Source: Erythrobacteraceae bacterium Alg239-R51 (GTDB lineage Bacteria; Pseudomonadota; Alphaproteobacteria; Sphingomonadales; Sphingomonadaceae). Taken from it: DNA of 64,000 nucleotides. Under the pieces are notes generated by a model. It worked only from the letters and a program-made list of their open reading frames with translations, was not told the DNA's origin and searched no databases. The DNA lies in the NCBI GenBank assembly GCA_947331495.1, contig CAMZOI010000001.1, positions 806,001-870,000 of the forward strand, read 5' to 3'. How positions within the stretch are numbered: position 1 is the first letter of the stretch; every line of letters begins with the position of its first letter. Below, piece by piece: positions 1-22,608 of the stretch. The position numbers and the translations under genes are program-made.

Positions 1-42
1 AGCGGCGATACCGCGGCAAGCGAGGACGAGGGCGAAAGTTGA
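1..42 (+). CDS. 3' end of an unidentified gene
   Basis: Frame 1 from the window edge is open for 13 codons (ending in an acidic, Ser/Glu-rich tail, SEDEGES) before a TGA. Acidic low-complexity tails are common at protein C-termini, and the following minus-strand gene ends 24 bases later, so a convergent gene end is plausible. The family cannot be told from so few residues, and the frame could be open by chance. Confidence 0.35.
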   Translation, partial: SGDTAASEDEGES

Positions 43-66
43 GCCTTTCGCCCCGCCCGGACCAGC

Positions 67-1182
67 CTATTCCGCTGCCTCGACCTCGTCCGCCTCGGCC
101 ATGGTTGGGTAATCGATGTAGCCTTCGGGGCCTGGCATGTACCAGGTTTTAGGCGCATCGACATTCGGTGCGAGCTGCGCGCCGATCCTGAACCGCTCCG
201 GCAGGTCGGGATTCGATATGAAATCGCGTCCCCAGCTAACTGCATCGCACCGCCCCGACTCGATGTCGGCCGCCGCGCCTTCGGGCGAATAGTCGCTGTT
301 AAGCACGAGCGCGCCCGAATATCGCTGGCGGATAAGCGGGCTCTGCTTGGGAACTTCGGTGCTGCCGAACGTCCCTTCCGGCCCCGGTTCGCGCAGTTCG
401 AGGAACGCCAAGCCAAGCTCTTCGATCACCTTGGCCGCCGCGCCGAACGTCGCGGGGGGATCGCTGTCGTCGCAGCCTTGGGTTTCGCCATTGGGCGACA
501 GGCGTACGCCGACACGGTCTGCCCCCCATACGCCAACCAGTGCATTCAACACTTCACGAAGAAAACGGGTACGGTTTTCGGGGCTTCCGCCGTATTCGTC
601 ATCGCGCAGATTTGTGCCGTCGCGCAAGAACTGGTCTACCAGGTAACCATTCGCGCCGTGCAATTGCACACCGTCGAAACCGGCCTTCTTTGCATTTTCG
701 GCTGCGTGGCGATAATCATCCACCACCCGGGTTATCTCGTCTTTACCCAGCGCGCGAGCCGGCTGATAATCCTTGCGTCCTTCGAAAGTGTGCGCGTGAC
801 CTGGCGCGCAGGTTGCACTGGCCGATACGGGCGGCTTACCGTCGAGAAAATCGGGATGCACCAGCCGCCCCATGTGCCATAGCTGAAGGACGATAAGCCC
901 GTCCTCTTCGTGCACGCCCTGCGTGACCGGTTTCCAGCCCTCGACTTGTTCCTCACTCCAGATGCCGGGTGCGGCAGGCCAGCCGAGCCCTTCGACGCTG
1001 ATCCCGGTTGCTTCGCTGATAATCAGGCCCGCGCCAGCCCGCTGACGGTAATACGTCGCCATCATCTCGTTCGGTACCGAACCCGGCTGGCTCGAACGAC
1101 CTCTCGTGAGCGGGGCCATGAAGATTCGGTTGCGCGCTTCAAGCGAACCCATGGTTAGCGGTTCGAACAATTTTGCGTGCAT
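67..1182 (-). CDS. alkene reductase, old yellow enzyme family (NemA-like)
   Basis: A 371-residue FMN-dependent NADPH oxidoreductase of the OYE/N-ethylmaleimide reductase family, which reduces activated C=C bonds or nitro-compounds in the cytoplasm. One TIM barrel fills the protein. The N-terminal stretch (LFEPLTMGSLEARNRIFMAP), the LQLWHMGR segment near residues 99-106 and the substrate-binding His-x-x-Asn (HGAN, 175-178) followed by the DEYGGSPENRTRF signature are all present. I chose the ATG at 1182 because the family consensus starts there and an AAGGA Shine-Dalgarno lies just upstream; the longer open frame upstream has no family resemblance. It is divergent from the EamA gene with a 54-base gap that must hold both promoters. 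The natural substrate cannot be inferred. Confidence 0.93.
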   Translation of the reverse strand: MHAKLFEPLTMGSLEARNRIFMAPLTRGRSSQPGSVPNEMMATYYRQRAGAGLIISEATGISVEGLGWPAAPGIWSEEQVEGWKPVTQGVHEEDGLIVLQLWHMGRLVHPDFLDGKPPVSASATCAPGHAHTFEGRKDYQPARALGKDEITRVVDDYRHAAENAKKAGFDGVQLHGANGYLVDQFLRDGTNLRDDEYGGSPENRTRFLREVLNALVGVWGADRVGVRLSPNGETQGCDDSDPPATFGAAAKVIEELGLAFLELREPGPEGTFGSTEVPKQSPLIRQRYSGALVLNSDYSPEGAAADIESGRCDAVSWGRDFISNPDLPERFRIGAQLAPNVDAPKTWYMPGPEGYIDYPTMAEADEVEAAE

Positions 1183-1236
1183 GGTGGGCCATTCCTTTTT
1201 GCTGGCAGGATATGGACGAAGAGCTAGGGGCGGGGG

Positions 1237-2154
1237 ATGAACGGCGCAACCGCACCGGCGGACAAGAATGGCTATCAGGCCAGTGCGTGGCACTTTGCTG
1301 CGCTGCTCGGCGGGAATACAGCGCTTGCCTTGGGGCCGTGGCTGGTGCGGCTGTCCGATACGGGGCCGGTTTCGGCTGCGTTCTGGCGGCTGTTCCTGCC
1401 GATCCCGGTCATCGCATACCTTGCGTGGAAGGGAAGATCTTCGGGGCCGATCGACCGCAAACTCATGTTGCTGGTTCTTGCGGCCGGCGTTTTCTTCGCA
1501 TTCGATCTTGCCAGCTGGCACATCGGGATCGAGCGTACGCGGTTGGGCAATGCCGTGCTGTTTGGCAATTCGGGTAGCTTGATCCTGATGCTGTGGGGTC
1601 TTGTGGTGTTACGACAGGCACCCTCGCGGCGCGAAGCGTTGGGGGTCCTTGCCGCGCTTGCAGGCGCGGCGATCCTCTTGGGACGGAGTCTGGATATTTC
1701 CACGGCAACGTTTGTCGGCGACCTCTTTTGCCTGCTGGCGGGACTGTTCTACGCCTTCTATCTTCTGCCTGCCCAACGGGCACGATCGGCGCTAGGGCAA
1801 TGGAGCGTATTGCTGCTCGTCTGCCTCGCAGCCTCTCCCTTATTGCTTGGGATGGCGTTCGTTCTGGGCGAACCAGTCTGGCCAGGCGCGGCTGGGTGGA
1901 CGCCAGTAGTATTGCTCGCCCTCTCGAGCCAGATCATCGGTCAGGGGCTGCTCGTCTTCTCGCTGAAGCATTTTTCGCCACTTATAATCGGCATGGCCTT
2001 GCTGACCCAACCGGCGATTGCCGCGACTGTCGGCTGGCTGGTGTTTGCCGAGGTCCTGCTGCCGCCCGATATTCTGGGGATGGTACTGGTGGCTGCGGCG
2101 CTGGTATTGGCCCGGAGCGTCAGTCGACCGATTTCGAATCCATCACCTTCCTGA
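1237..2154 (+). CDS. EamA/DMT-family transporter
   Basis: A 305-residue inner-membrane protein with about ten hydrophobic helices arranged as two EamA repeats, the standard architecture of drug/metabolite exporters (RhaT/YdcZ type). Hallmarks are the first-helix region (AFWRLFLPIPVIAYLAWKG) and the second-repeat segment (LSSQIIGQGLLVFSLKHFSP), typical of sphingomonad members. The start is the ATG preceded by a purine-rich GGGGCGGGG stretch. Its last 35 bases overlap the 3' end of the oppositely oriented DUF2254 gene. The substrate is unknown; amino acids or metabolites are typical for the family. Confidence 0.88.
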   Translation: MNGATAPADKNGYQASAWHFAALLGGNTALALGPWLVRLSDTGPVSAAFWRLFLPIPVIAYLAWKGRSSGPIDRKLMLLVLAAGVFFAFDLASWHIGIERTRLGNAVLFGNSGSLILMLWGLVVLRQAPSRREALGVLAALAGAAILLGRSLDISTATFVGDLFCLLAGLFYAFYLLPAQRARSALGQWSVLLLVCLAASPLLLGMAFVLGEPVWPGAAGWTPVVLLALSSQIIGQGLLVFSLKHFSPLIIGMALLTQPAIAATVGWLVFAEVLLPPDILGMVLVAAALVLARSVSRPISNPSPS

Positions 2155-3427
2155 AACTCTGATATCGAGCTTCCACCGATTCCAGATCGGGTCCGGTCAG
2201 ATGCTTGCGCGCCTGCCGTGCGAGCTGCTCGCCTTCCCGTTCAAGCGCGACCAGCCGAGACTCATCGTTCAGCAGGCTCGCGGCGTTGGCGATCGTGTCG
2301 AAGGTTACACGGGCGGCGGTGGGACTTGTCGCGACTGCCGAGCGCATCGCGCCAAAACCTCGATTCACGAAGTGATTGAAATCATCATCCAGCAGAACCA
2401 ACCGGTCTCCGTCTGCATCTTTTGCCTCGCCGAAAGCGCGGGTCAGATCGCGATAACCCAGTTCGGCGGTTGCCGCGCCGAGCCAGTGAATCGAGGTAAT
2501 CGCAGTGAACGGATCGTTGATACCGGGAGATAGCGCTCGAAGTCCTATTTCGACCAATTCGTCGATCAGGAAATGCAGATCTTGCGCAGGCGTCCGCATG
2601 CCGCCGAGCGTGAAACAATCACGCACCTTGTCGTCGTGGAGATCTTCGAGGTCTTCGTCATCATCGGTCCAGAAGACGATCGGTACGCCGGGATGCACGA
2701 AATCGCCCGTGCGCACTCCCAACGTGATGTGGTCTTTTTCATCACGTGCGATCTTTTCTAGCTTTTCAAAGTCTATCCTTTGAACATAGCCAGTATTCCG
2801 GGCTGTTACCGGGCGACCCTTGGGCGGCTGGGTTTCTTGCGCGCCGCTGTTCTTCTTTGGAAAGTTTTTCTCGATATCGCCGATAAGCCGCTGCCCTATC
2901 CCCTTCAGGACCGAATTGATCCGAATCGAAGCCGGAATATGATTGAGGAAGAACACGAGGACTGCGATCGATATGGCCATCAGCAGATAGGCTACCAGCA
3001 AAGACAATTGGGGCACGAAGGCCATGGCATTCGCGCCCTCGACCCGCACCACCCGCAAGACCGTAAGTGCATAAACAAATGTTGCGATGAAAGTAGCCAG
3101 GCTGAGCTGGTTCCCCTTGTCTTCCATGAAGTTGGTCAGCAAGCGCGGACCGTAATTCCCGCTGGCATAAGCCACGGCTGCGATGGTGATAGAGAAAACG
3201 GTTGAGGCTACTCCGATCATCGAGGCGGCGATGACATTGAGCATGTTGGATGCGCCGTCGGGCCGGGCGGGGCGGATGTAATCAAACGAGACGACCGTCT
3301 CTCCCCAGCCAATTCGATCCAGATATATTGTCCAAAGGGCTAGCAGCAGCGCTAGGATCGAGAACAAGGCCGGATAGAACCAGTAGTTGGCATTGATCCT
3401 TTGCCAGAAATTACGCAGCCAACCCAT
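2120..3427 (-). CDS. DUF2254 family membrane protein
   Basis: A 435-residue predicted inner-membrane protein. The N-terminal half contains four strong membrane helices (approximately residues 18-38, 62-88, 108-128 and 142-165); the C-terminal half is soluble, with the ISPGIND-type segment (LSPGINDPFTAITSIHWLG) that is typical of DUF2254. Function is uncharacterised in the family. No close partner gene is apparent: nadA follows upstream on the same strand about 200 bases away. The stop codon lies inside the 3' end of the convergent transporter gene. Confidence 0.85.
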   Translation of the reverse strand: MGWLRNFWQRINANYWFYPALFSILALLLALWTIYLDRIGWGETVVSFDYIRPARPDGASNMLNVIAASMIGVASTVFSITIAAVAYASGNYGPRLLTNFMEDKGNQLSLATFIATFVYALTVLRVVRVEGANAMAFVPQLSLLVAYLLMAISIAVLVFFLNHIPASIRINSVLKGIGQRLIGDIEKNFPKKNSGAQETQPPKGRPVTARNTGYVQRIDFEKLEKIARDEKDHITLGVRTGDFVHPGVPIVFWTDDDEDLEDLHDDKVRDCFTLGGMRTPAQDLHFLIDELVEIGLRALSPGINDPFTAITSIHWLGAATAELGYRDLTRAFGEAKDADGDRLVLLDDDFNHFVNRGFGAMRSAVATSPTAARVTFDTIANAASLLNDESRLVALEREGEQLARQARKHLTGPDLESVEARYQSFRKVMDSKSVD

Positions 3428-3624
3428 CAGGCCACTCCTTTTCGGTCTGCAAAGAGGAAAAGGGTACAGACCCTTCGGGATGCACGTGGAAGTGTCAGTG
3501 CCGATCTACCTGAACATGCAGGCATTTCCGTTCCCCCTCACTTGGTCGTCGTCAACGCGACAGCATATGTGGTGGCGAGCCGATGACCTGGTTGCGCAAA
3601 GCTCAATATCGCAGAGCAGCGATA

Positions 3625-4611
3625 TCAAACCTTACCAAGGTCGCCTTTGCCAATCGTACCGCTCGCCATTTCCAGCATCCGGTCAAGACTCTGCTTGGCC
3701 TTCAGGCGCAGCCCTTCCTCGATCTCGATACGCGGTTCGAGATCGCGCAGGCAGGCATATAGCTTTTCCATCGTGTTGAGCGCCATGTATGGGCAGATAT
3801 TGCAGCTGCAATTGCCGTCCGCGCCCGGCGCACCGATGAAGGTCTTGTCCGGAATCGCCTTCTCCATCTGATGAATGATGTGCGGCTCGGTCGCCACGAT
3901 CAGCGTGTCGCCTTCGAAAGTCTTGGCGTATTGCAGGATACCGCTTGTCGAACCGACATAGTCCGCATGATCGATGATCGTCGGGGGGCATTCCGGATGC
4001 GCGACGACGGGCGCGCCAGGGTGCTGTTGTTGCAGCTTAAGCAATTCGGTTTCGCTGAAGGCTTCGTGCACGATGCATACGCCCGGCCACAAAAGCATCT
4101 CGCGGTTAAACTTGCGTGACAGATAGCCGCCCAAATGCCGGTCTGGCCCGAAGATGATCTTCTGGTCCTCGGGGATCTGGCTGATGATCGTCTCGGCGCT
4201 CGAGCTGGTGACAATCACATCGCTGAGCGCTTTAACTTCGGTCGAACAGTTGATGTAGGTCAGCGCGATATGGTCGGGATGCTTTTCGCGAAAGGCTTTG
4301 AATTTCTCGGGCGGACAGCTGTCTTCCAGGCTGCACCCGGCATCCATGTCGGGCAGGACAACAATCTTTTCAGGCGACAGAATCTTGGCCGTATCGGCCA
4401 TGAACTTGACCCCGCAAAAGGCAATGACGTCAGCATCGGTGTCCGCTGCCTTGCGCGAAAGCTCGAGACTGTCGCCGACGAAATCGGCCAGGTCCTGGAT
4501 GTCGGGTGTCTGATAATAGTGTGCCAGAATAATCGCATTCTTTTCCTCGCGGAGGCGATTGATTTCTTCGAGCAAGTCATTGCCGGTGGGTAGGCTGATT
4601 TCGGCCGTCAT
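3625..4611 (-). CDS. nadA: quinolinate synthase NadA
   Basis: A [4Fe-4S] enzyme that condenses iminoaspartate with dihydroxyacetone phosphate to quinolinate in de novo NAD synthesis. The 328-residue product carries the family hallmarks: AHYYQTPDIQDLADFVGDS near the start, the FCGVKFMA segment, AGCSLEDSCP (candidate cluster Cys93), HPECPP (Cys208) and a CSCNICPYM cluster near 268-273. I use the ATG at 4611; an in-frame TTG nine codons upstream would add MDHIRRDVR, which is not family-like. nadB and nadC, the usual partners, are not nearby. A short palindrome (ATATCGC / GCGATAT, 3606-3625) lies directly at the 3' end without a T-run. Confidence 0.96.
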   Translation of the reverse strand: MTAEISLPTGNDLLEEINRLREEKNAIILAHYYQTPDIQDLADFVGDSLELSRKAADTDADVIAFCGVKFMADTAKILSPEKIVVLPDMDAGCSLEDSCPPEKFKAFREKHPDHIALTYINCSTEVKALSDVIVTSSSAETIISQIPEDQKIIFGPDRHLGGYLSRKFNREMLLWPGVCIVHEAFSETELLKLQQQHPGAPVVAHPECPPTIIDHADYVGSTSGILQYAKTFEGDTLIVATEPHIIHQMEKAIPDKTFIGAPGADGNCSCNICPYMALNTMEKLYACLRDLEPRIEIEEGLRLKAKQSLDRMLEMASGTIGKGDLGKV

Positions 4612-14280: not shown

Positions 14281-14901
14281 CTAGGCTCTTAAAGTAGCGG
14301 CCTTGCGTGCCAGATGTTCGACTTTTGATTCATCCACCGGGCCGCGCGGTGCGACCCAACTTCCCCCGACGCAAAGCACGGGATCGAACGCGAGCCAGTC
14401 CGAGGCATTATCCGGGGTTATTCCTCCGGTAGGACAGAACCGGCATTGCGAGAAAGGCGCGGCGAGGGCCTTCAGCGCGGGTAGCCCGCCGGCAGCCATT
14501 GCAGGAAAAAATTTGAAGTGCGTCAGGCCCATTTCCAACCCGCGCATGATATCGCCAGCATTGGCGATCCCGGGCAGGAAGGGAATTTTCTCACGAACGG
14601 CTGTCTTCCCCAGCGTTTCGGTCAGGCCGGGAGAAACTATGAACTCGCTTCCCGCGCTGATTGCATCGGACAAATCCTGCTGGTTGATGACGGTACCTGC
14701 ACCAACGATGGCACCTTCGACCTTCTTCATGGCGCGGATCGCATCGAGCGCGACCGGTGTGCGCAAAGTGACTTCAAGGACCCGCAATCCACCTGCCACG
14801 AGTGCACGCGCGAGCGGTAGGGCATGTTCGATGTCGTCCACCACGATGACCGGTATGACCGGAGCGACCGCCATCAGCCTAGCGATGCTCTCGGTCGTCA
14901 T
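14281..14901 (-). CDS. eda: 2-dehydro-3-deoxy-phosphogluconate aldolase Eda
   Basis: Last enzyme of the Entner-Doudoroff route, splitting KDPG to pyruvate and glyceraldehyde 3-phosphate. In the 206-residue protein Glu43 (EVTLRT) and the Schiff-base Lys130 (THFKFFPA) align with the catalytic Glu45 and Lys133 known in E. coli Eda; GAGTV and PTGGI phosphate-binding segments are present. The ATG overlaps the TGA of glk (ATGA), showing coupled translation. It is the final gene of the zwf-edd-glk-eda operon. Confidence 0.96.
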
Positions 14902-15866
14902 GCGTGCTCTTTCGCAAAGGCTGCTGCGGCGCCGAGCAGCCCCGGTTGCGGATGTGTGATCAGCTTGACGGGGACCGTTGCCATAAGGCTGGCAAATCGT
15001 CCCTTGGCACAAAAACGCTCGGCAAAGCCCGATTTCGGTAAGTAATCGCGCAGACGATATCCCAACCCTCCCGCAATGACTACTCCGCCGAAACCGCCTT
15101 GGGCAAGCGCATAGTCACCCGCCACGCTGCCAAGCGAAAGACAGAACCGATCGACCGCCGCAGTCGCGAGACTGTCGTCGTTCTGCATGCCACGGGTCCA
15201 GAGTGAAACGTCGTCCTCATCGCCGGTCACATGGTTTCCCATCGCCGCCAGCGTCTCGTAGATATCGACTATAGCCGGCCCGGACACCACGCGCTCGACC
15301 GATACACGCGTGTAGCGCTTGCGAAGCCGGGTGAGGATAGCGTCTTCTATGGCGTCAAGCGGCGCGAAGTCGATATGGCCGCCCTCGGTTGCCTGCACGC
15401 GGTAACGCTCAGCGGATCGCCAGAGATGAGCGACGCCAAGCCCGGTTCCAGGGCCAAGAACGGTGATCGTGCCGTCACGGGCGAGCGGCTGGTCGGGTCC
15501 GGTTATGTGATCGAACTGGTCTTCTGACGCGCGCGCCACCGCGTGCGCCACGGCTTCGAAATCGTTGACGATGGTAAGTTTCTCGATCTCGAGGGTCGTT
15601 TTTACAAGCGCTGGCCGAATGATCCAAGGGTTGTTGGTGAACTTGATGATTTCGCGGCCGGTCGTTCCCGCGATCGCCATGGCAATACGCGGCGGAAGCG
15701 GACTCCCCCGTCGCTCGCGAAAACCCTGCCACGCGGCCTGAAAGCTCGGATGATGTTCGGTATGCATCGTTTCAACTTCGCCAAGCGTGACCGAGCCGTC
15801 CTGGCCTAGTGTGGCGATAGCGAACCGGGCATGGGTGCCGCCGATATCGACGCTGACCAGATCCAT
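14898..15866 (-). CDS. glk: glucokinase Glk
   Basis: ATP-dependent glucose phosphorylation, ROK-unrelated bacterial glucokinase family (322 residues). Hallmarks are the [11 protein letters not shown] phosphate loop at the N-terminus, [24 protein letters not shown] and EGGHIDFAP. Starting at ATG 15866 leaves a two-base gap after the edd stop; a GTG two codons earlier would instead overlap that stop. Either way edd, glk and eda are translationally coupled. Supplies glucose 6-phosphate for the adjacent Zwf step, implying that glucose enters unphosphorylated. Confidence 0.96.
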
Positions 15867-15868
15867 GG

Positions 15869-17686
15869 TCACAAACCAGCCATGGCCAGCATGGCAGAGG
15901 CGCCTTCTTCGGCGCCATCGGCTCTGTCGCGGAACATGGCGAAGAATTCGCGACCCATGCCCTTTTCTGATGCGGGGTGGGCAGCCGGATCGCGGCTTTC
16001 AAGATCTGCTTCGGCGCAGAGTACACCGGTTTCGGCGCAGACTTTCACCACGTCACCGTCGCGCAGCCGGGAAAGCGGGCCGTCGCCGAGCGCTTCGGGC
16101 GTACAATGTATAGCGGCGGGTACCTTGCCGCTTGCGCCGCTCATGCGCCCGTCTGTAACCAGCGCGACGCGATAACCCCGGTCTTGCAGAACACCGAGCG
16201 CGGGTGTGAGCTTGTGCAGTTCGGGCATACCATTGGCGCGTGGCCCCTGATACCGCACGACGACCACCACGTCGCGGTCGAGCTCGCCCTTTCCGAAAGC
16301 CTCGGTCACCGCATGCTGGGTCTCGAAAATCCGGCAGGGGGCTTCGATAGTCCAGCGCTCGCGTTCCACCGCCGAGGACTTGAAGCAGGCACGACCCAGA
16401 TTGCCTTCGACCAACCGCATTCCGCCATCGGACTGGAACGGGTCGGAGGCAGGACGAAGCATCTCGGGATCCCCGCTCGGCCCGGGATCGCGCCAGACCA
16501 GGGCGTCGTCGTCCATTCCCGGTTCGTTTCGATAGGCTTCAAAACCAGCGTCCCAGACGGTGAGAATATCGTCATGCACCAGGCCTTCATCGAGAAGTGC
16601 GCCGATCACAAAGCCCATGCCGCCTGCATCATGGAAATGATTTACGTCACCCGAACCGTTGGGATAGACGCGCGCCACAAGTGGAATGGCTCGCGAAAGC
16701 TCGGCCAGATCTGTCCAGTCGAACCGAATCCCCGCGGCTCGTGCTATCGCTGGAATATGGATCGCGTGATTGGTCGAGCCTCCCGTAGCCAGCAGACCAA
16801 TCGCAGCGTTGATAATTGCTTTTTCGTCGACAACCTCGGCGAGAGGACGATAATCTTCCCCGGCTTTTCCGATTGCCGCGAGCCGATGCGTCGCTGCACG
16901 CGACAACTCCTGTCGAAGCCTGGCACCCGGGGGAACGAACGCTGCGCCGGGAACATGCAGTCCCATCATCTCCATCATCATCTGGTTGGAATTGGCCGTG
17001 CCGTAAAAGGTGCAGGTGCCTGGCGAATGATAGCTTGCACTTTCGCTCTCGAGCAGTTCGTCGCGACCCACCTTGCCTTCGGCGTAAAGTTGGCGGACGC
17101 GCTGTTTTTCCTTGTTGGAGATACCTGTTCCCATAGGACCTGAAGGCACGAATACCGCCGGAAGGTGTCCGAAACGCAGCGCACCCATCAGCAGACCGGG
17201 CACGATCTTGTCGCATATGCCGAGCAAGGCGACACCGTCGAATGTCGCATGACTGAGGGCAATTATAGTTGAAAGTGCGATGGTATCGCGGCTGAACAGT
17301 GACAGTTCCATTCCGTCCTGGCCCTGTGTCACACCATCGCACATCGCCGGCGTTCCCCCCGCGACCTGAGCAGTGGCGCCTGCTTCACGCGCCCAGATTT
17401 TCATTCGTTCCGGATAGCGATGGTATGGCTGATGCGCGCTCAACATGTCGTTATAGGCGGTGACGATCGCGAGATTCGGGCCGCGAGCATCCTTGATCGC
17501 TCGCTGGTCTTCTTCCGCCCCGGCAAAAGCATGGGCCAGGTTCGAACAGGACAAGGAGTGCCGGTCGACCTGCCGCTCGCCCTCGCGCTTCATGAGATCG
17601 AGATAGGCTGCCCGACTGCTTTGCGAATTGTCGATCACGCGCTGTGTTACGTGTTGGATCGTGTCGTTGAGCGGTTTAGTCGTCAT
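15869..17686 (-). CDS. edd: phosphogluconate dehydratase Edd
   Basis: The [4Fe-4S] dehydratase that converts 6-phosphogluconate to KDPG, defining the Entner-Doudoroff pathway. The 605-residue chain is full length for the IlvD/Edd family, with [29 protein letters not shown] and [12 protein letters not shown] containing the expected cysteines, and [15 protein letters not shown] near the C-terminus. Its start overlaps the zwf stop by 11 bases. A pgl gene, often found between zwf and edd, is missing. Confidence 0.97.
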
Positions 17687-19115
17687 GCCAGGTTACTCCG
17701 TCGCGTTCGGCCAGCGCGATGGCCGCGCTCGGACCCCAGGTGCCCGCGCCATAGCTTTTGGGCTTCAGTTCGTTCTCGGCCCAAAGCCCACGGATGTGGT
17801 CGATCCATTCCCATTGTGCCTCGACCTCGTCACGGCGAACGAACAGGGTCTGATCGCCTTCAATCAAGTCCAACAGCAATCGTTCGTATGCGATTCGCCG
17901 CACGACATCGGTAAAGGCATCAGGCATCGCAATGTCTAACGGTACGGGACGCAAACGCAGGCCTTCGCGTCCCAGTCCTGGAACCTTGGCCATCATTGTC
18001 AGCTGAATGTTCTCTTCAGGCTGGATGCCGATGACCAGCCGGTTGGGCTGAGTCCGTGCGCCGCGGCCGGCGAAGATAGAATGCGGAATGCAGCGGAACT
18101 GGACCACGATCTCGGTAACACGTTCGGGCAGGCGCTTGCCATGACGCAAGTAGAACGGCACGCCGTGCCAGCGCCAATTGTCGACGTGTGCTTTCATCGC
18201 GACGAAGGTCTCGGTGTCGCTGTCCTTGCCCAGTTCCTCGTCGTAGCCAGAGACGCTTTTACCCTCGACGGCGCCGGCGCGATACTGGCCAGTCACGACC
18301 TCGTCTTCTTTCATGGGCCGTAGAGCGCGAAGGACCTTGACCTTTTCGTCGCGCACGGCAGTGGCCTCGAAGCTGGTAGGCGGTTCCATCGCGACCAGCG
18401 CGAGCAGTTGGAGCATGTGATTCTGCACCATGTCGCGCAGCGCGCCGCTATCGTCGTAGTAAGCAACACGTGATTCGAGCCCGACTGTTTCTGCGACGGT
18501 AATCTGGATATGCTCGACGTAATTCGAGTTCCAGACCGGCTCCAGCAGGACGTTCGCGAAGCGCAATGCCAACAGGTTCTGTACGGTTTCCTTGCCAAGA
18601 TAATGGTCGATGCGGAAAATTCGATTCTCGGAAAATGCCTTCGCAACTGCGTCGTTGATTTCTTGACTGCTTGTCAAATCAAAGCCCAGCGGTTTTTCCA
18701 GCCCGATGCGAACATTGCCTTGGGTAAGCCCTGCTGTCTGCAGACCTTCAATGGTTGGTTCGAACAAGCCTGGTGCGGTCGAAAGAAAAATGGCCAGGCC
18801 GCTGTAGTCGCCTACCTTGCGCGCAAGTTGGTCGTAACCCTCCGGCGTGGTGGCATCGACCGACACGTATGTCAGGCGATTGAGGAAGTCCGCCATCGGC
18901 CCGCGCCTGTTCTTCGGAAGGTACCGCTCTAAAGCCGCACGTGCGAACTGGCGAAATTCGCTCGTGCTCATTTCGGACCGCGCCGTGGCAACAATCTTCA
19001 GATTCGAAGCTAGAAAACCGTCGGCATGCAAGGCACACAACGAAGGTAACAACATGCGTTGCGACAAGTCACCCGTTGCTCCGAAGAGCAAGAGCCGGTC
19101 GGCGGTAAAGTTCAT
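17676..19115 (-). CDS. zwf: glucose-6-phosphate 1-dehydrogenase Zwf
   Basis: Oxidises glucose 6-phosphate to 6-phosphogluconolactone with NAD(P)+. The 479-residue protein carries the N-terminal nucleotide-binding [15 protein letters not shown] and the catalytic [21 protein letters not shown] region (split by the word limit: [12 protein letters not shown] then NLLALRFAN). The ATG at 19115 is preferred because homologues begin just before the GATGDLS loop and an ACGGGGCGGA Shine-Dalgarno precedes it. First gene of zwf-edd-glk-eda, with a likely promoter about 40-65 bases upstream. Confidence 0.96.
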
Positions 19116-19152
19116 ATTATCCGCCCCGTGATGATTTTGGCTCCAGTCACTA

Positions 19153-19181
19153 ATAACCAATCAATCCTGTGATCATGTCAA
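19153..19181 (-). promoter_or_regulatory. candidate promoter of the Entner-Doudoroff operon
   Basis: On the minus strand a perfect TTGACA (19181-19176) is followed after 17 bases by GGTTAT (19158-19153), a half-matching -10. The position fits transcription starting about 30 bases before the zwf ATG. Confidence 0.4.
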
Positions 19182-19193
19182 ATGGTCGCCAAA

Positions 19194-19991
19194 CTAGTCT
19201 TTGGTAACCTTGACCGAGCTACTTTCGAACTGAGTTTGTCCAAAGCTGGTTAGAAAACTTACATCGGCCGCATCGCGTCCGACGCCAATTTTGACGGTAT
19301 CTTCCGGATTTGCCATTCCGGTTGCATCGACGAGCTGCCAGGTCCCGCCTCCGTCCGTCTCCGGATCGTTCAGAAAAACCTCGGCCACCGCGTGAAAATC
19401 AGGCGGCTCTACCCCGGGTGAGTAACAGGCAACGTACCGCGCCGGAATCGTGCTGGCGCGCGCAAGGGTAATTAGGACATGAGCATAATCGCGACATATG
19501 CCGCGCCTGGCGATGAACGTGTCGGATGCATTGGTTTCCGAACCCGAACTTCCCGGCACATATGAAAAATTAGTCGCCATCCAGTCCCTGATGGCTGCGA
19601 TCCGCTCGCCACCTTCCGTCCCGGCAAATTCGGCTTCGACAAACGGTTGAAAGCGGTCCGCCGGGCAGTACCGGCTATCGAAGAGGTATTGCACCGCTTC
19701 ACCTGGCATCACGTGGGGTGACAACATTCTCAAACGCGCGATGTCGGCAAGCTGGCGTTGCAAATCAACCTGCGCCTCATAAGCAACTTCGAACCTGCCT
19801 TCAGCCCGGATCCATATCCTCTCACCGATGCCGTCCTGCGCCGGGACGCGGGCGCAGTGTTGAGCATCGGACATCGTCGTTTTGCAACTTCGTACAATCT
19901 GTTCTGGAATGGCCGCAGCTTCGAACTGCAGCAGAACGTCGGTCGGCGAGGCGAGGGAAAAAACAAAGCGGGTGTCGATCGAAATGGTCAT
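19194..19991 (-). CDS. transglutaminase-like cysteine protease family protein
   Basis: A 265-residue cytoplasmic-looking protein. The first ~120 residues resemble the N-terminal beta domain common in bacterial transglutaminase-like proteins; the catalytic core has the ordered triad Cys in GICRDYAHVLI, His in DFHAVAEVFLND and Asp in WQLVDATG. Such proteins may cleave or ligate peptides, but substrates are rarely known. Start choice is uncertain: ATG 19991 is used; an in-frame TTG at 20036 is nearer to the upstream terminator. It is the first ordinary gene downstream, on the same strand, of the Trp-rich mini-ORF and its terminator, so any attenuation there would act on this gene. Confidence 0.82.
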   Translation of the reverse strand: MTISIDTRFVFSLASPTDVLLQFEAAAIPEQIVRSCKTTMSDAQHCARVPAQDGIGERIWIRAEGRFEVAYEAQVDLQRQLADIARLRMLSPHVMPGEAVQYLFDSRYCPADRFQPFVEAEFAGTEGGERIAAIRDWMATNFSYVPGSSGSETNASDTFIARRGICRDYAHVLITLARASTIPARYVACYSPGVEPPDFHAVAEVFLNDPETDGGGTWQLVDATGMANPEDTVKIGVGRDAADVSFLTSFGQTQFESSSVKVTKD

Positions 19992-20072
19992 ATGCGCAGG
20001 CAACGCCGCATTCGGTCCTTCGTTTCGAGCCACCAATATGAAGAGCGGCTTTCGGGAGAATGCTGCGCAACG

Positions 20073-20096
20073 AAAAAGGGCCCCAAAAAGGGGCCC
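20073..20096 (-). terminator. intrinsic terminator after the Trp-rich mini-ORF
   Basis: Minus-strand RNA forms a 7-bp all-GC stem (GGGCCCC / GGGGCCC, 20096-20090 with 20084-20078) around a five-U loop and is followed by five U residues (20077-20073). It lies 28 bases after the stop codon of the mini-ORF and before the transglutaminase-like gene. Confidence 0.85.
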
Positions 20097-20118
20097 TCAA
20101 TTCATTGATTAGGTTGGC

Positions 20119-20131
20119 AGGGCCTCAGCCC
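20119..20131 (-). promoter_or_regulatory. candidate attenuator segments 1 and 2 (alternative pairing)
   Basis: GGGC at 20131-20128 (last codons of the mini-ORF) can pair with GCCC at 20123-20120 around a four-base loop. The overlapping GGCCCT at 20124-20119 is instead complementary over six bases to AGGGCC at 20097-20092, which is the 5' arm of the terminator. The two pairings are mutually exclusive, as in leader-peptide attenuators. The complementarity is seen; the regulatory meaning is inference and short GC words could pair by chance. Confidence 0.4.
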
Positions 20132-20157
20132 AGCATCCATTTCCAAAAGCTCCACAT
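20125..20157 (-). CDS. Trp-rich decapeptide ORF (possible leader peptide)
   Basis: An ATG-initiated 11-codon frame encodes MWSFWKWMLG with three UGG codons in ten. A perfect AGGAGG Shine-Dalgarno (20170-20165) is spaced seven bases before the ATG, better than most genes in this window. A second in-frame ATG two codons upstream is too close to the Shine-Dalgarno to be used. A strong terminator follows 28 bases after the stop. The frame begins about 60 bases after the stop of the EAL-domain gene on the same strand. It could be a leader peptide sensing charged tRNA-Trp, or a free-standing amphipathic micropeptide. I do not recognise the peptide from any named family. Confidence 0.6.
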   Translation of the reverse strand: MWSFWKWMLG

Positions 20158-20165
20158 GGTCATTC

Positions 20166-20184
20166 CTCCTGTTGAGTTCAGGAG
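20166..20184 (-). promoter_or_regulatory. hairpin overlapping the mini-ORF ribosome-binding site
   Basis: Minus-strand RNA CTCCTG (20184-20179) pairs perfectly with CAGGAG (20171-20166) around a seven-base loop, burying most of the AGGAGG Shine-Dalgarno. Six base pairs is a modest stem, so it would tune rather than abolish initiation. Confidence 0.45.
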
Positions 20185-20217
20185 TAACCATTCATTAACC
20201 ATGATTGTTTGTAAAGT

Positions 20218-22608
20218 CTAAACTATGTTCGCCACTGCTTCCTCCGGTCGCTTAACCTGAAATTCCAACAGGTTGGACAGAGAAATAGGTCGTGAAAAAG
20301 CGTATCCCTGGACCTGCTGACAGCCAAGCTTCCTGAGAATCGGTACGTCTGCCAGGTCTTCGAGGCCTTCGGCGACTACCGTAATTTGCGAGCTAGTACC
20401 GATCAGCGCCATGCTCTCGACGATGGTCCGGGCCTTTTCGTTCGTTCGAATGTCCGCCACGAACATTCGATCGATCTTCAACTCGTCGAACGGAAGTTCG
20501 TAAAGAGTCTCGAAATTCGCGGCACCCACTCCGAAGTCGTCAATGGATACCTTGACACCCATCTGCTTTAATTCGGCTAGAATTGTGGCGGCGGTCGAAA
20601 AATCGGCGATGCGGGCAGTCTCAGTGATCTCGAGCGTCAATGATCGTGCATCGAATTTGGTAGCCTGCAGGACATTGCGCACGATCCCGACAATACGCAT
20701 GTCTCTGAGCAAAGTAGCGGAAATGTTCACGGCCATCGTTAGGTGTGCGCCCCGGAAATGCAGCAATTGCCCTGCCGAACAGGCGCTTTGCAGAACATAG
20801 CGTGTGAGGTGTTCCATCCTTCCAGCCTTTTCGCACTGCTGGATGAAATGGATGGGCGAAATAAAGCCGCGTGAGGGATCATGCCAGCGAACGAGCGCTT
20901 CAACCCCGGTCGTCTCATTGGTCTGTAGGTCAATCTTCGGCTGATAGACGCAATATATTTCGCCTGCCTCCATCGCTTCATCGATACGCGCTCGGAGAGA
21001 CAAGTCCCAGAGCAATTCGTGCTGCGATCCAACGTCGGCTACGACGATCGGACGAGACGCTTCGCTCGTTTCTTCGGCGGCGGCAACAGCGGAGGCTACC
21101 CGAGCGGAGACATCTTCTCCGAGTGCACTGATACCGAAAGTAATTCCAACATCGATTGAGTAGTCTGCCACTTGGACCGGCGCGGCGAAGATAGCTCTTA
21201 AACCCTCCAAATGCTCCTTAACCGCATCGGTTTGATCGGTCGGAGTATGCCATGCGATGTGGTGTCCTTCGCAATAGACCGTAAGTTCCGATTCGGTTGC
21301 CCTTAGGCGATCGACGAGCTTTAGAACGTATTGCCGTCTATCCTGCCCCGGTAGCGATTTCAAAACTCGCTCGTAATTCTGAACTTTTGCAACGATTATA
21401 TGGCCATGAACAACCTTACTTTTCGCAAGGCGATGCTCCAGTGCGCGAAGTGTCGGTAGACCGGTATCTTGGTTCACAAGCTGGACGTTGTGTCTCCAGC
21501 GACTGCGAGAACGGAACAGGGCAAAAAAGGAAAGCATGGCAAAAGGGTAAGATAATTCAATTCGCCCGCCCCAGACCGAGCTAGCTGTGAATATTACCAG
21601 CAATGTTAACGGAATAACCGCATAGCCAAAGTGTCTAGTTCGGTTTGAAGAAGTTAGTATTATTACCAAAATCAGTAAAAGGGAGGCCGTGATAATTATA
21701 TAGCCGCCAGAAACCGAAACCGTCTTTCCAGACTTCAACGTTTCGCCAGCATAAATTGGAATATAGCTTTTCGGAACTTCTCGACGACCCGGAACGGCTT
21801 GAGTCGCACCAGAAACCGTCGAAGTATGACCGATAACAACGGTCTTTCCGGAGAAGTCTATTGTCGTGTTCTGCGCGCCAGGTGCGTCTGGTGCCAGTGC
21901 CGAGAGCGGAACGTAGGGAATGCGATCGGCTGGAAAACCATAGTCGATTGGGAATGGATCAGAACTACGTCGATCAATCCCCGCCAAAGCGCTGCTGAAT
22001 GAGCGCACCCCGTCTTTTCCGATCGAGTGCAAGAATCGGTCATGCCAAGAGAGGCCGAAAAGTTGGGTGAAAGTTTCATCATGCGCTACGCGGCTAGCAT
22101 CGCGTCCTATTTCCGGGTGAGTGGTCCTAAGTTCAAGTTCTCCCCGGTCATCGAGTGACAAACGATCAACAAGCGCGATGCGAAACCCAAGGTCCGAAAT
22201 GGCGTTCGCCAAGGCTCGGTCGGCGCCGGCGTTTTCCGACAGACCGAAGGGAATATCGAGATAAACCTTTCCAACCCCCAAGCGGTCTAACTCACGAAGT
22301 GCAGAAGCTAGTTCAAGCCTTTGCTCGACGGAGGTCGGTTCGTCCAACTTATCGCTTGAACCGACGAAAACGATTTCGCCGGAAGGGTTTCTGTCGGCCA
22401 AGTTCGCCTGAAAAATCCAGGCGGTTTGATCGAATGGCTCGAGCAACAGCGCAGCAAAGAGCAAGAAGGCAATTCCGGCTGACCACAGGACGTGACGTAG
22501 CCGCTCGACAACGTGCGCGCTTTTGCGCCCGTCGCGCGCAAGCCGCGTTCCCAGCCAATTGCCGATATTCGAGGCGCGTTCGTCACCCATCGAACGCCTT
22601 ATGGACAT
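20218..22608 (-). CDS. CHASE2 / degenerate GGDEF / EAL signalling protein
   Basis: A 796-residue membrane protein likely to hydrolyse cyclic-di-GMP. A first helix (about 40-58) leads into a periplasmic CHASE2 sensor (to about 290), followed by three membrane helices (about 302-320, 328-345, 352-366). The GGDEF-like domain (about 372-510) is degenerate: GHHIA occupies the place of GGDEF at 448-452, so diguanylate cyclase activity is unlikely. The EAL domain (about 535-785) retains the motif Glu570-Ala-Leu, Asn628, Glu660/Glu663, Asp690-Asp691, Lys711, Glu747 and Gln767, consistent with an active phosphodiesterase. An alternative start is ATG 22590. Base composition is AT-richer than in neighbouring genes, including several ATT/AAT codons in the membrane part. 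The sensed signal is unknown. Confidence 0.88.
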   Translation of the reverse strand: MSIRRSMGDERASNIGNWLGTRLARDGRKSAHVVERLRHVLWSAGIAFLLFAALLLEPFDQTAWIFQANLADRNPSGEIVFVGSSDKLDEPTSVEQRLELASALRELDRLGVGKVYLDIPFGLSENAGADRALANAISDLGFRIALVDRLSLDDRGELELRTTHPEIGRDASRVAHDETFTQLFGLSWHDRFLHSIGKDGVRSFSSALAGIDRRSSDPFPIDYGFPADRIPYVPLSALAPDAPGAQNTTIDFSGKTVVIGHTSTVSGATQAVPGRREVPKSYIPIYAGETLKSGKTVSVSGGYIIITASLLLILVIILTSSNRTRHFGYAVIPLTLLVIFTASSVWGGRIELSYPFAMLSFFALFRSRSRWRHNVQLVNQDTGLPTLRALEHRLAKSKVVHGHIIVAKVQNYERVLKSLPGQDRRQYVLKLVDRLRATESELTVYCEGHHIAWHTPTDQTDAVKEHLEGLRAIFAAPVQVADYSIDVGITFGISALGEDVSARVASAVAAAEETSEASRPIVVADVGSQHELLWDLSLRARIDEAMEAGEIYCVYQPKIDLQTNETTGVEALVRWHDPSRGFISPIHFIQQCEKAGRMEHLTRYVLQSACSAGQLLHFRGAHLTMAVNISATLLRDMRIVGIVRNVLQATKFDARSLTLEITETARIADFSTAATILAELKQMGVKVSIDDFGVGAANFETLYELPFDELKIDRMFVADIRTNEKARTIVESMALIGTSSQITVVAEGLEDLADVPILRKLGCQQVQGYAFSRPISLSNLLEFQVKRPEEAVANIV

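Follow-up and report, generated by a model that had tools for sequence, protein, structure and literature searches.

A short unit between the EAL and transglutaminase genes

The window analysed here, the whole 64,000-nucleotide stretch of DNA from Erythrobacteraceae bacterium Alg239-R51, carries on its minus strand a gene for a protein with an EAL domain, followed at its 3′ end by a promoter-like block, a hairpin hiding a Shine-Dalgarno (SD) sequence, a ten-codon open reading frame (sORF), and an intrinsic terminator; a transglutaminase gene lies beyond (Table 1). On re-reading the minus strand we found that a first-pass annotation had placed the SD, the sORF, the pairing segments, and the terminator correctly, while overlooking the SD-hiding hairpin, the block, and the GAAAC-N16-CGTT motif.

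Table 1. Features in and around the micropeptide unit, in order of transcription
Feature	Position	Strand	Basis or remark
EAL gene, 796 aa: CHASE2-like part, TM helices (by eye), degenerate GGDEF, EAL	20218..22608	minus	upstream of the unit
Promoter-like block ATAGTTTAGACTTTACAAACAATCATGGTTAA	20195..20226	minus	contains the EAL stop codon, 20220-20218
SD-hiding hairpin: CTCCTG (20184-20179), AACTCAA, CAGGAG (20171-20166)	20166..20184	minus	
SD AGGAGG	20170-20165	minus	sequence; 7 bases from ATG
Micropeptide ORF ATGTGGAGCTTTTGGAAATGGATGCTGGGCTGA, MWSFWKWMLG and TGA	20157-20125	minus	sequence; amino-acid-level conservation in 85 relatives
Segments GGGC and GGCCCT	20131-20128 and 20124-20119	minus	sequence
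Intrinsic terminator: AGGGCCCC (20097-20090), loop TTTTT, GGGGCCCT (20084-20077), T5	20073..20097	minus	
GAAAC-N16-CGTT, EcfG-like motif before the transglutaminase gene	20002..20026	minus	outside the micropeptide unit

Outer pairs between 20191-20185 and 20162-20156 extend the SD hairpin into the start codon. If GGGC and GGCCCT are called segments 1 and 2, and the arms of the terminator segments 3 and 4, the minimum-energy fold of the region contains both 1:2 and 3:4, and the region is somewhat more stable than its shuffles (z = -2.3; 3 of 200 shuffles equally stable). The DNA pattern of the peptide, ATGTGGNNNTTYTGGNNNTGG, matches once in the window, never in 100 shuffles, and once in the whole genome. 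A search of the window against Rfam at gathering thresholds returned only two tRNAs, and our scan of the window found no terminator between the EAL gene and the sORF.

Distribution and conservation of the unit

A sequence model of the block, SD, and core codons (R1) detected the unit in 54 of the 60 genus genomes searched (52 of 57 if only good ones are counted), each with a single copy. Across the order it matched 66 of 396 genomes, representing 15 of 84 genera as tallied; 2 of these 66 are chance matches (L110 and L114, which lie outside the family). Among 240 genomes of the class, the model search gave a sole strong match, in the genome analysed here, and 8 weak matches in 7 others (E = 0.0009-0.006). 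The DNA pattern matched 11 times in 298 family genomes, 8 times with identical architecture and 3 times by chance (L002, L005, and L011), and a scan of named genomes with the block returned 46 records, 43 of them with an sORF after the block (mostly Qipengyuania, Erythrobacter, and relatives) and 3 due to chance, with neither peptide nor EAL frame (L186, L204, and L221). An EAL frame of more than 600 aa precedes the sORF in 32 of the 43, the rest having too little upstream sequence or a shorter frame. At one locus (L098, genome G576) the whole unit occurs in tandem: the second copy stands about 190 nt after the first and has, by eye, its own block, hairpin, MRIWDWLFHRGTR, and terminator. A search of NCBIfam with a 23-aa member gave no match.

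The peptides share a core, [FI]-W-x-W-[LFMI], which in 85 elements reads F, I, M, or L; W or Y; any residue; W or Y; and mostly L, F, M, or I. Each of the two core Trp positions is W in 83 elements and Y in 2, counts to be read knowing that the search model holds the Trp codons and so favours Trp-bearing relatives. Pairwise difference at the five core codons is 0.31, 0.12, and 0.40 at codon positions 1, 2, and 3, compared with 0.60-0.75, mostly 0.7, for the 15 bases after the stop codon; 84 of the 85 members are 10-20 aa long, and GGAG lies 6-9 nt before the ATG in 81 of 85. Substitutions do occur: the second Trp is Arg in L187, L203, and L207; L219 (MRDILNTIIGGSR) has no Trp; and the first Trp of the window's peptide is often F, G, or absent in relatives. 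WxW is present in 19 of 28 diverged sORFs and some Trp in 27. Judged by these comparisons, the amino acids of the sORF are under selection across relatives, and the sORF combines the open frame, SD, and amino-acid-level selection that define a small-protein gene.

RNAalifold recovered 6 pairs only from a 32-sequence alignment, all in the terminator, and missed the SD hairpin because indels shift the hairpin register; we therefore used per-sequence tests. With relatedness only partly controlled in these shuffle and swap statistics, the SD hairpin has a mean z of -2.5 in the 85 elements (z < -1 in 77, none > 1) and of -1.9 in 48 clade representatives (z < -1 in 36, < 0 in 44), and predicted SD access falls below the shuffled-upstream value in 37 of those 48. 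Against mononucleotide-shuffled upstream sequence, z remains below -1 in 104 of 113 elements when 28 distant ones (excluding L161) are added. The swap test gave -10.5 kcal/mol for own sequences vs -8.2 kcal/mol, with rank <0.05 in 23 of 85 and >0.5 in 21 of 85; when the exchange was confined to the sequence 3′ of the SD, the fold became worse in 86 of 113 elements, the count among the 28 distant ones being just 14. An inner GTTAA-like word shortened the upstream part in L014, L029, L118, L124, L127, and L128, which biases against the hairpin. Paired changes are seen in single cases: TGGGTC with GACCCA (L089), and AAACCTCC with GGAGGTTT (L119). A second hairpin, at the stop codon, has a mean z of -1.0 in the 85 elements (below -1 in 45) and swap ranks of <0.05 in 15 and >0.5 in 27; a terminator-like stem follows the stop by 4-47 nt in all 85, and its arms, the positive control for the swap test, had a mean rank of 0.08. 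Computation gave no hint of an RNA thermometer: predicted SD access in the 48 representatives hardly alters between 20 °C (0.289) and 42 °C (0.297).

Among the non-coding parts of the 32-sequence alignment the block is the best conserved, and ahead of the SD region no other stretch is conserved; TTTACAAACNNNNATGGTTAA has a single genomic match, the next best showing 3 mismatches, and TTGACA replaces TTTACA in the block of L116-L118. We infer that the block is a promoter, although a sigma-70 consensus scan of 19000-21000 found none and no conserved -10 element could be recognised within it. Measured in eight elements, TTTAC stands 42-50 nt upstream of the SD and GTTAA 26-34 nt upstream. If we assume the usual sigma-70 spacing, TTTACA as -35 would start the transcript about 9 nt before the window's SD, with the anti-SD arm mostly lost, and GTTAA as -10 would start it about 17 nt before, with the arm kept. 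With a shortened leader, predicted SD access rises to at least 0.4 in 5 of the 8 elements (all except L121, L131, and L134). An own-promoter RNA that had lost the anti-SD arm would be translatable, and RNA reading through from the EAL gene silent. A(T)GGTTAA (TTAACC(A)T on the other strand), resembling half of a CtrA site, is nearly invariant in the 32 sequences; the full site, given as TTAA-N7-TTAA in the accessible part of PMC9437464, is not conserved in that alignment.

The upstream EAL gene and its product

In 58 of 60 loci an EAL ortholog lies directly upstream on the same strand, the other two loci being chance matches, and in 49 of 57 the EAL stop codon falls 5-12 nt inside the matched block. 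As far as sequence comparison can define it, the conserved unit is block, SD hairpin, sORF, and terminator, tied to the 3′ end of the EAL gene. A search of 296 genomes with the EAL protein found 141 with E ≤ 1e-50, paralogues included. Of another 40 EAL loci, none of which the DNA model had picked up, 24 have a Trp-rich sORF with an SD (e.g. MAKRTKQPVRGFWDWLLGGGWSN) and 5 more a diverged sORF, so that sORFs, 11-32 aa long, stand behind 29 of the 40. The remaining 11 have no recognisable sORF: six fall in a single clade of paralogues, in one the place is taken by what looks by eye like a transposase ORF, and four (from genomes G041, G068, G076, and G023), called peptide-less by script, lie outside the trees. 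A TTG-start ORF far downstream of the EAL gene in L177 was set aside as chance.

The peptide-less EAL genes form a clade of 7 rows in a 78-row tree (support 99), the paralogue from the window's own genome among them, and of 11 rows representing 10 distinct genes when more rows are included (support 100/99); no recognisable peptide was found in any member. The own-genome paralogue (L251, contig 2 of G000, 1-4500) is a second EAL gene without a recognisable micropeptide. In another member, L252 (G324), a 22-aa basic ORF at about 3831 (MRKSNKRRQPANSKGLPLKKPN), with no aromatic residue and no good SD, is followed by a terminator-like stem and is possibly a remnant of a long form of the peptide.

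Six genomes of the genus lack the unit: in four, an EAL gene from a different clade is accompanied by a micropeptide of its own (MWEYFRTLFGAR, MSIWKWFGDLVSPR, MSIWKWVGNLVSPR, and MDYSFWGYFGKIFGSR), and two have the peptide-less clade only. In the genus members L116-L118, EAL gene and peptide are found together elsewhere in the genome, and the EAL gene clusters in the tree with a clade from other genera; together with the TTGACA variant, this suggests that the EAL-micropeptide pair was transferred as a unit. Some EAL genes before open micropeptide units are apparently shortened or broken: L094 fills 43% of the tree columns, and L106, in three pieces, was left out of the trees and of the column comparison below.

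The window's EAL protein matches Pfam EAL at 2.5e-63, and by eye we take it to have the usual EAL catalytic motifs and to lack the GGDEF motif in its GGDEF domain. CHASE2 (Pfam) was not detected in this protein; among six relatives scanned, five scored at E ≤ 0.001, three of them above the Pfam cut-off. An AlphaFold2 model (pLDDT 86.5) has membrane-type helices, by eye, at 301-318, 322-346, and 353-376, and, the N-terminus aside, its lowest confidence at 527-536. The best Foldseek matches were GGDEF-EAL enzymes such as DosP and PA0575, phosphodiesterases whose fold is shared by the C-terminal half of the protein; the N-terminal part had no match of its own among the best 50 listed.

At the GGDEF-EAL hinge, in that low-confidence stretch, all 74 peptide-bearing rows have Trp at residue 534, as does 1 of 11 peptide-less rows, a column picked post hoc as one of 7, with peptide-less rows that are a single clade and two pairs of identical genes (L240/L254 and L242/L257) each counted twice. 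Because the peptide-less genes form one clade, shared ancestry may account for the joint loss of hinge Trp and peptide, and we regard the association between Trp534 and the peptide as a lead only. At L234/L155 (G122; L234 did not enter the column comparison) what looks by eye like a transposase ORF occupies the micropeptide's place, and the EAL protein retains the hinge Trp.

Possible roles of the unit, and the downstream gene

The sORF is very probably a translated and selected micropeptide gene, and we put at roughly 0.6 the probability that it is an autonomous gene whose product works with the neighbouring phosphodiesterase. That the EAL protein is the peptide's functional partner seems to us an even bet; regulation of the EAL protein by the peptide would be the most economical reading, and their linkage may reflect shared transcription only. 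In the mechanism we favour, a promoter in the block would drive a separate micropeptide transcript; the SD hairpin would silence the peptide in transcripts that read on from the EAL gene, or gate it otherwise; and the Trp-rich peptide, without a signal peptide by eye, would sit at the inner membrane face and tune the phosphodiesterase, perhaps at the GGDEF-EAL hinge. Silencing of read-through RNA by the hairpin is a doubtful element of this scheme. An unlikely, more specific version would have a dedicated subunit of 10-32 residues dock at the Trp534 hinge and set enzyme activity, with only own-promoter RNA starting in the anti-SD arm being translated; enzyme and regulator would then be adjacent yet separately switched.

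Several other accounts draw on the same observations. The transcript could be a small regulatory RNA in which the ORF counts only through the remodelling of RNA by translation; the short terminated transcript predicted here, its conserved 5′ hairpin, and the modest stop-codon hairpin fit such an RNA, but the core holds amino acids rather than bases, and just past the stop, over 15 bases, divergence approaches that of random sequence, so that no seed region is visible there. We judge this account improbable, and one modelled on type I toxins, in which a membrane-active peptide would be encoded by an mRNA that hides its own SD and is countered by a putative antisense RNA, to be quite improbable: the SD-hiding hairpin and the Trp-rich composition agree with it, yet nearly all members are too short for the hydrophobic, membrane-spanning peptide of such toxins (diverged ones reach 32 aa), and the unit is single copy in the genome and fixed beside one gene. 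It is very unlikely that the unit is just a 3′ end element of the EAL mRNA, with a terminator and an ORF whose translation serves no purpose; the universal terminator-like stem, and the failure to find a terminator separating the window's EAL gene from its sORF, are what such an element predicts, but it would not account for the promoter-like block, the SD hairpin, the amino-acid selection in relatives, or the tandem duplication of the whole unit in L098. In many peptide-signal systems the sensor gene adjoins the peptide gene, as sensor and peptide genes do here, and CHASE2 scored in most of the relatives scanned; nevertheless, we consider it highly unlikely that the peptide is exported as a signal and sensed by the EAL protein through its periplasmic CHASE2-like domain, since we see no signal peptide by eye and the position that follows peptide presence most closely is a Trp in the cytoplasmic hinge.

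The first-pass annotation offered two readings of the locus, of which one has fared badly. It proposed an attenuator of the transglutaminase gene, in which a ribosome stalled at the UGG codons would cover segment 1 and favour 2:3 over the mutually exclusive 3:4, allowing read-through. The window sequence by itself is suggestive: 1:2 and 3:4 are in the predicted fold, 2:3 is possible, and the 2:3 duplex, at -13 kcal/mol, beats the segments of all other elements against the same arm (rank 0). However, 17 of 100 shuffles match that duplex, and in the 85 elements, all of which can form 3:4, 2:3 is no better than shuffles (mean z +0.06; z < -1 in 6, > 1 in 9) or swaps (mean rank 0.55). Among relatives the 2:3 pairing is not conserved, and Trp is not kept as a codon. 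The window ORF does have the three UGG codons of an amino-acid-operon leader, but relatives have Tyr, Arg, or no Trp in their place, so that Trp-tRNA sensing is not what is kept. Gene context is adverse too: the downstream gene in the window encodes a transglutaminase rather than an enzyme of amino acid biosynthesis; a transglutaminase gene follows in 17 of 22 genus loci but in only 4 of 36 non-genus loci (L101, L130, L132, and L135; L084 and L143 have less than 1 kb of downstream sequence); and among the 30 transglutaminase loci retrieved, 25 hold the micropeptide unit upstream and 5 have no peptide there, while an EcfG-like motif separates terminator and gene in 25. On these grounds we reject attenuation of the downstream gene, which is extremely unlikely. 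The other reading, in which the micropeptide gene stands alone and ends in a terminator of its own, finds support in the comparison of relatives, with the addition of a constant partner, the upstream EAL gene, that the annotation did not mention.

Small peptides, hidden SDs, and own terminators characterise type I toxin mRNAs, and trp-type attenuators have a very short Trp-containing leader ORF with a good SD and then an intrinsic terminator. The unit resembles the former in all three respects, and differs in that its peptides are mostly far shorter, no antisense unit is known, and its neighbour is constant. It likewise has the very short Trp-containing ORF, good SD, and subsequent intrinsic terminator of trp attenuators, as well as of peTrpL, the trans-acting leader peptide of Sinorhizobium meliloti (PMC7298713); unlike them, it has no conserved anti-terminator and neither trp nor any constant gene downstream, its Trp can be replaced by Tyr or Arg, and the gene to which it is tied lies upstream. 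Phage T4 gene e, whose translation start is occluded by a hairpin in RNA from upstream (according to the portion of PMC3014915 available to us), offers a parallel for a hairpin that covers both SD and start codon and is expected in RNA entering from upstream; the unit described here is chromosomal, not phage. We found no report of a paired micropeptide in the literature on GGDEF-EAL phosphodiesterases (e.g. DosP, PA0575), no paper in searches with six peptide cores, and no match for small protein combined with CHASE2, EAL, or Sphingomonas, or with c-di-GMP phosphodiesterase. The accessible portions of PMC9756655, PMC8116508, and PMC2877005 contain nothing on the micropeptide locus, and papers on CHASE2 with EAL were, in the parts available, cyanobacterial or general only.

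Ten-codon genes are absent from nearly all annotation, and here comparison alone reveals one under amino-acid-level selection across a family, with a fixed partner gene and a conserved hairpin covering the site where translation begins. Comparison can also make a textbook-looking attenuator in a single sequence vanish. The locus offers a direct and cheap test of whether micropeptides regulate c-di-GMP enzymes, for which the peptide-less paralogue clade is a natural negative control.

Beyond the terminator, the transglutaminase gene is followed in the window by zwf and, as we read the translations of 14281-19160 (minus strand), by edd, glk, and eda, presumably an Entner-Doudoroff operon; zwf is directly downstream of the unit in L123 and L136. 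The GAAAC-N16-CGTT motif, expected 0.66 times by chance in the whole window, resembles what we take to be the consensus for EcfG, the general stress sigma factor; 0.5% of shuffles contain such a motif, compared with the 25 of 30 loci given above, for which the scanned region cut off the window's own copy. The transglutaminase more likely starts at ATG 19991 than at TTG 20036, and it may belong to the general stress response.
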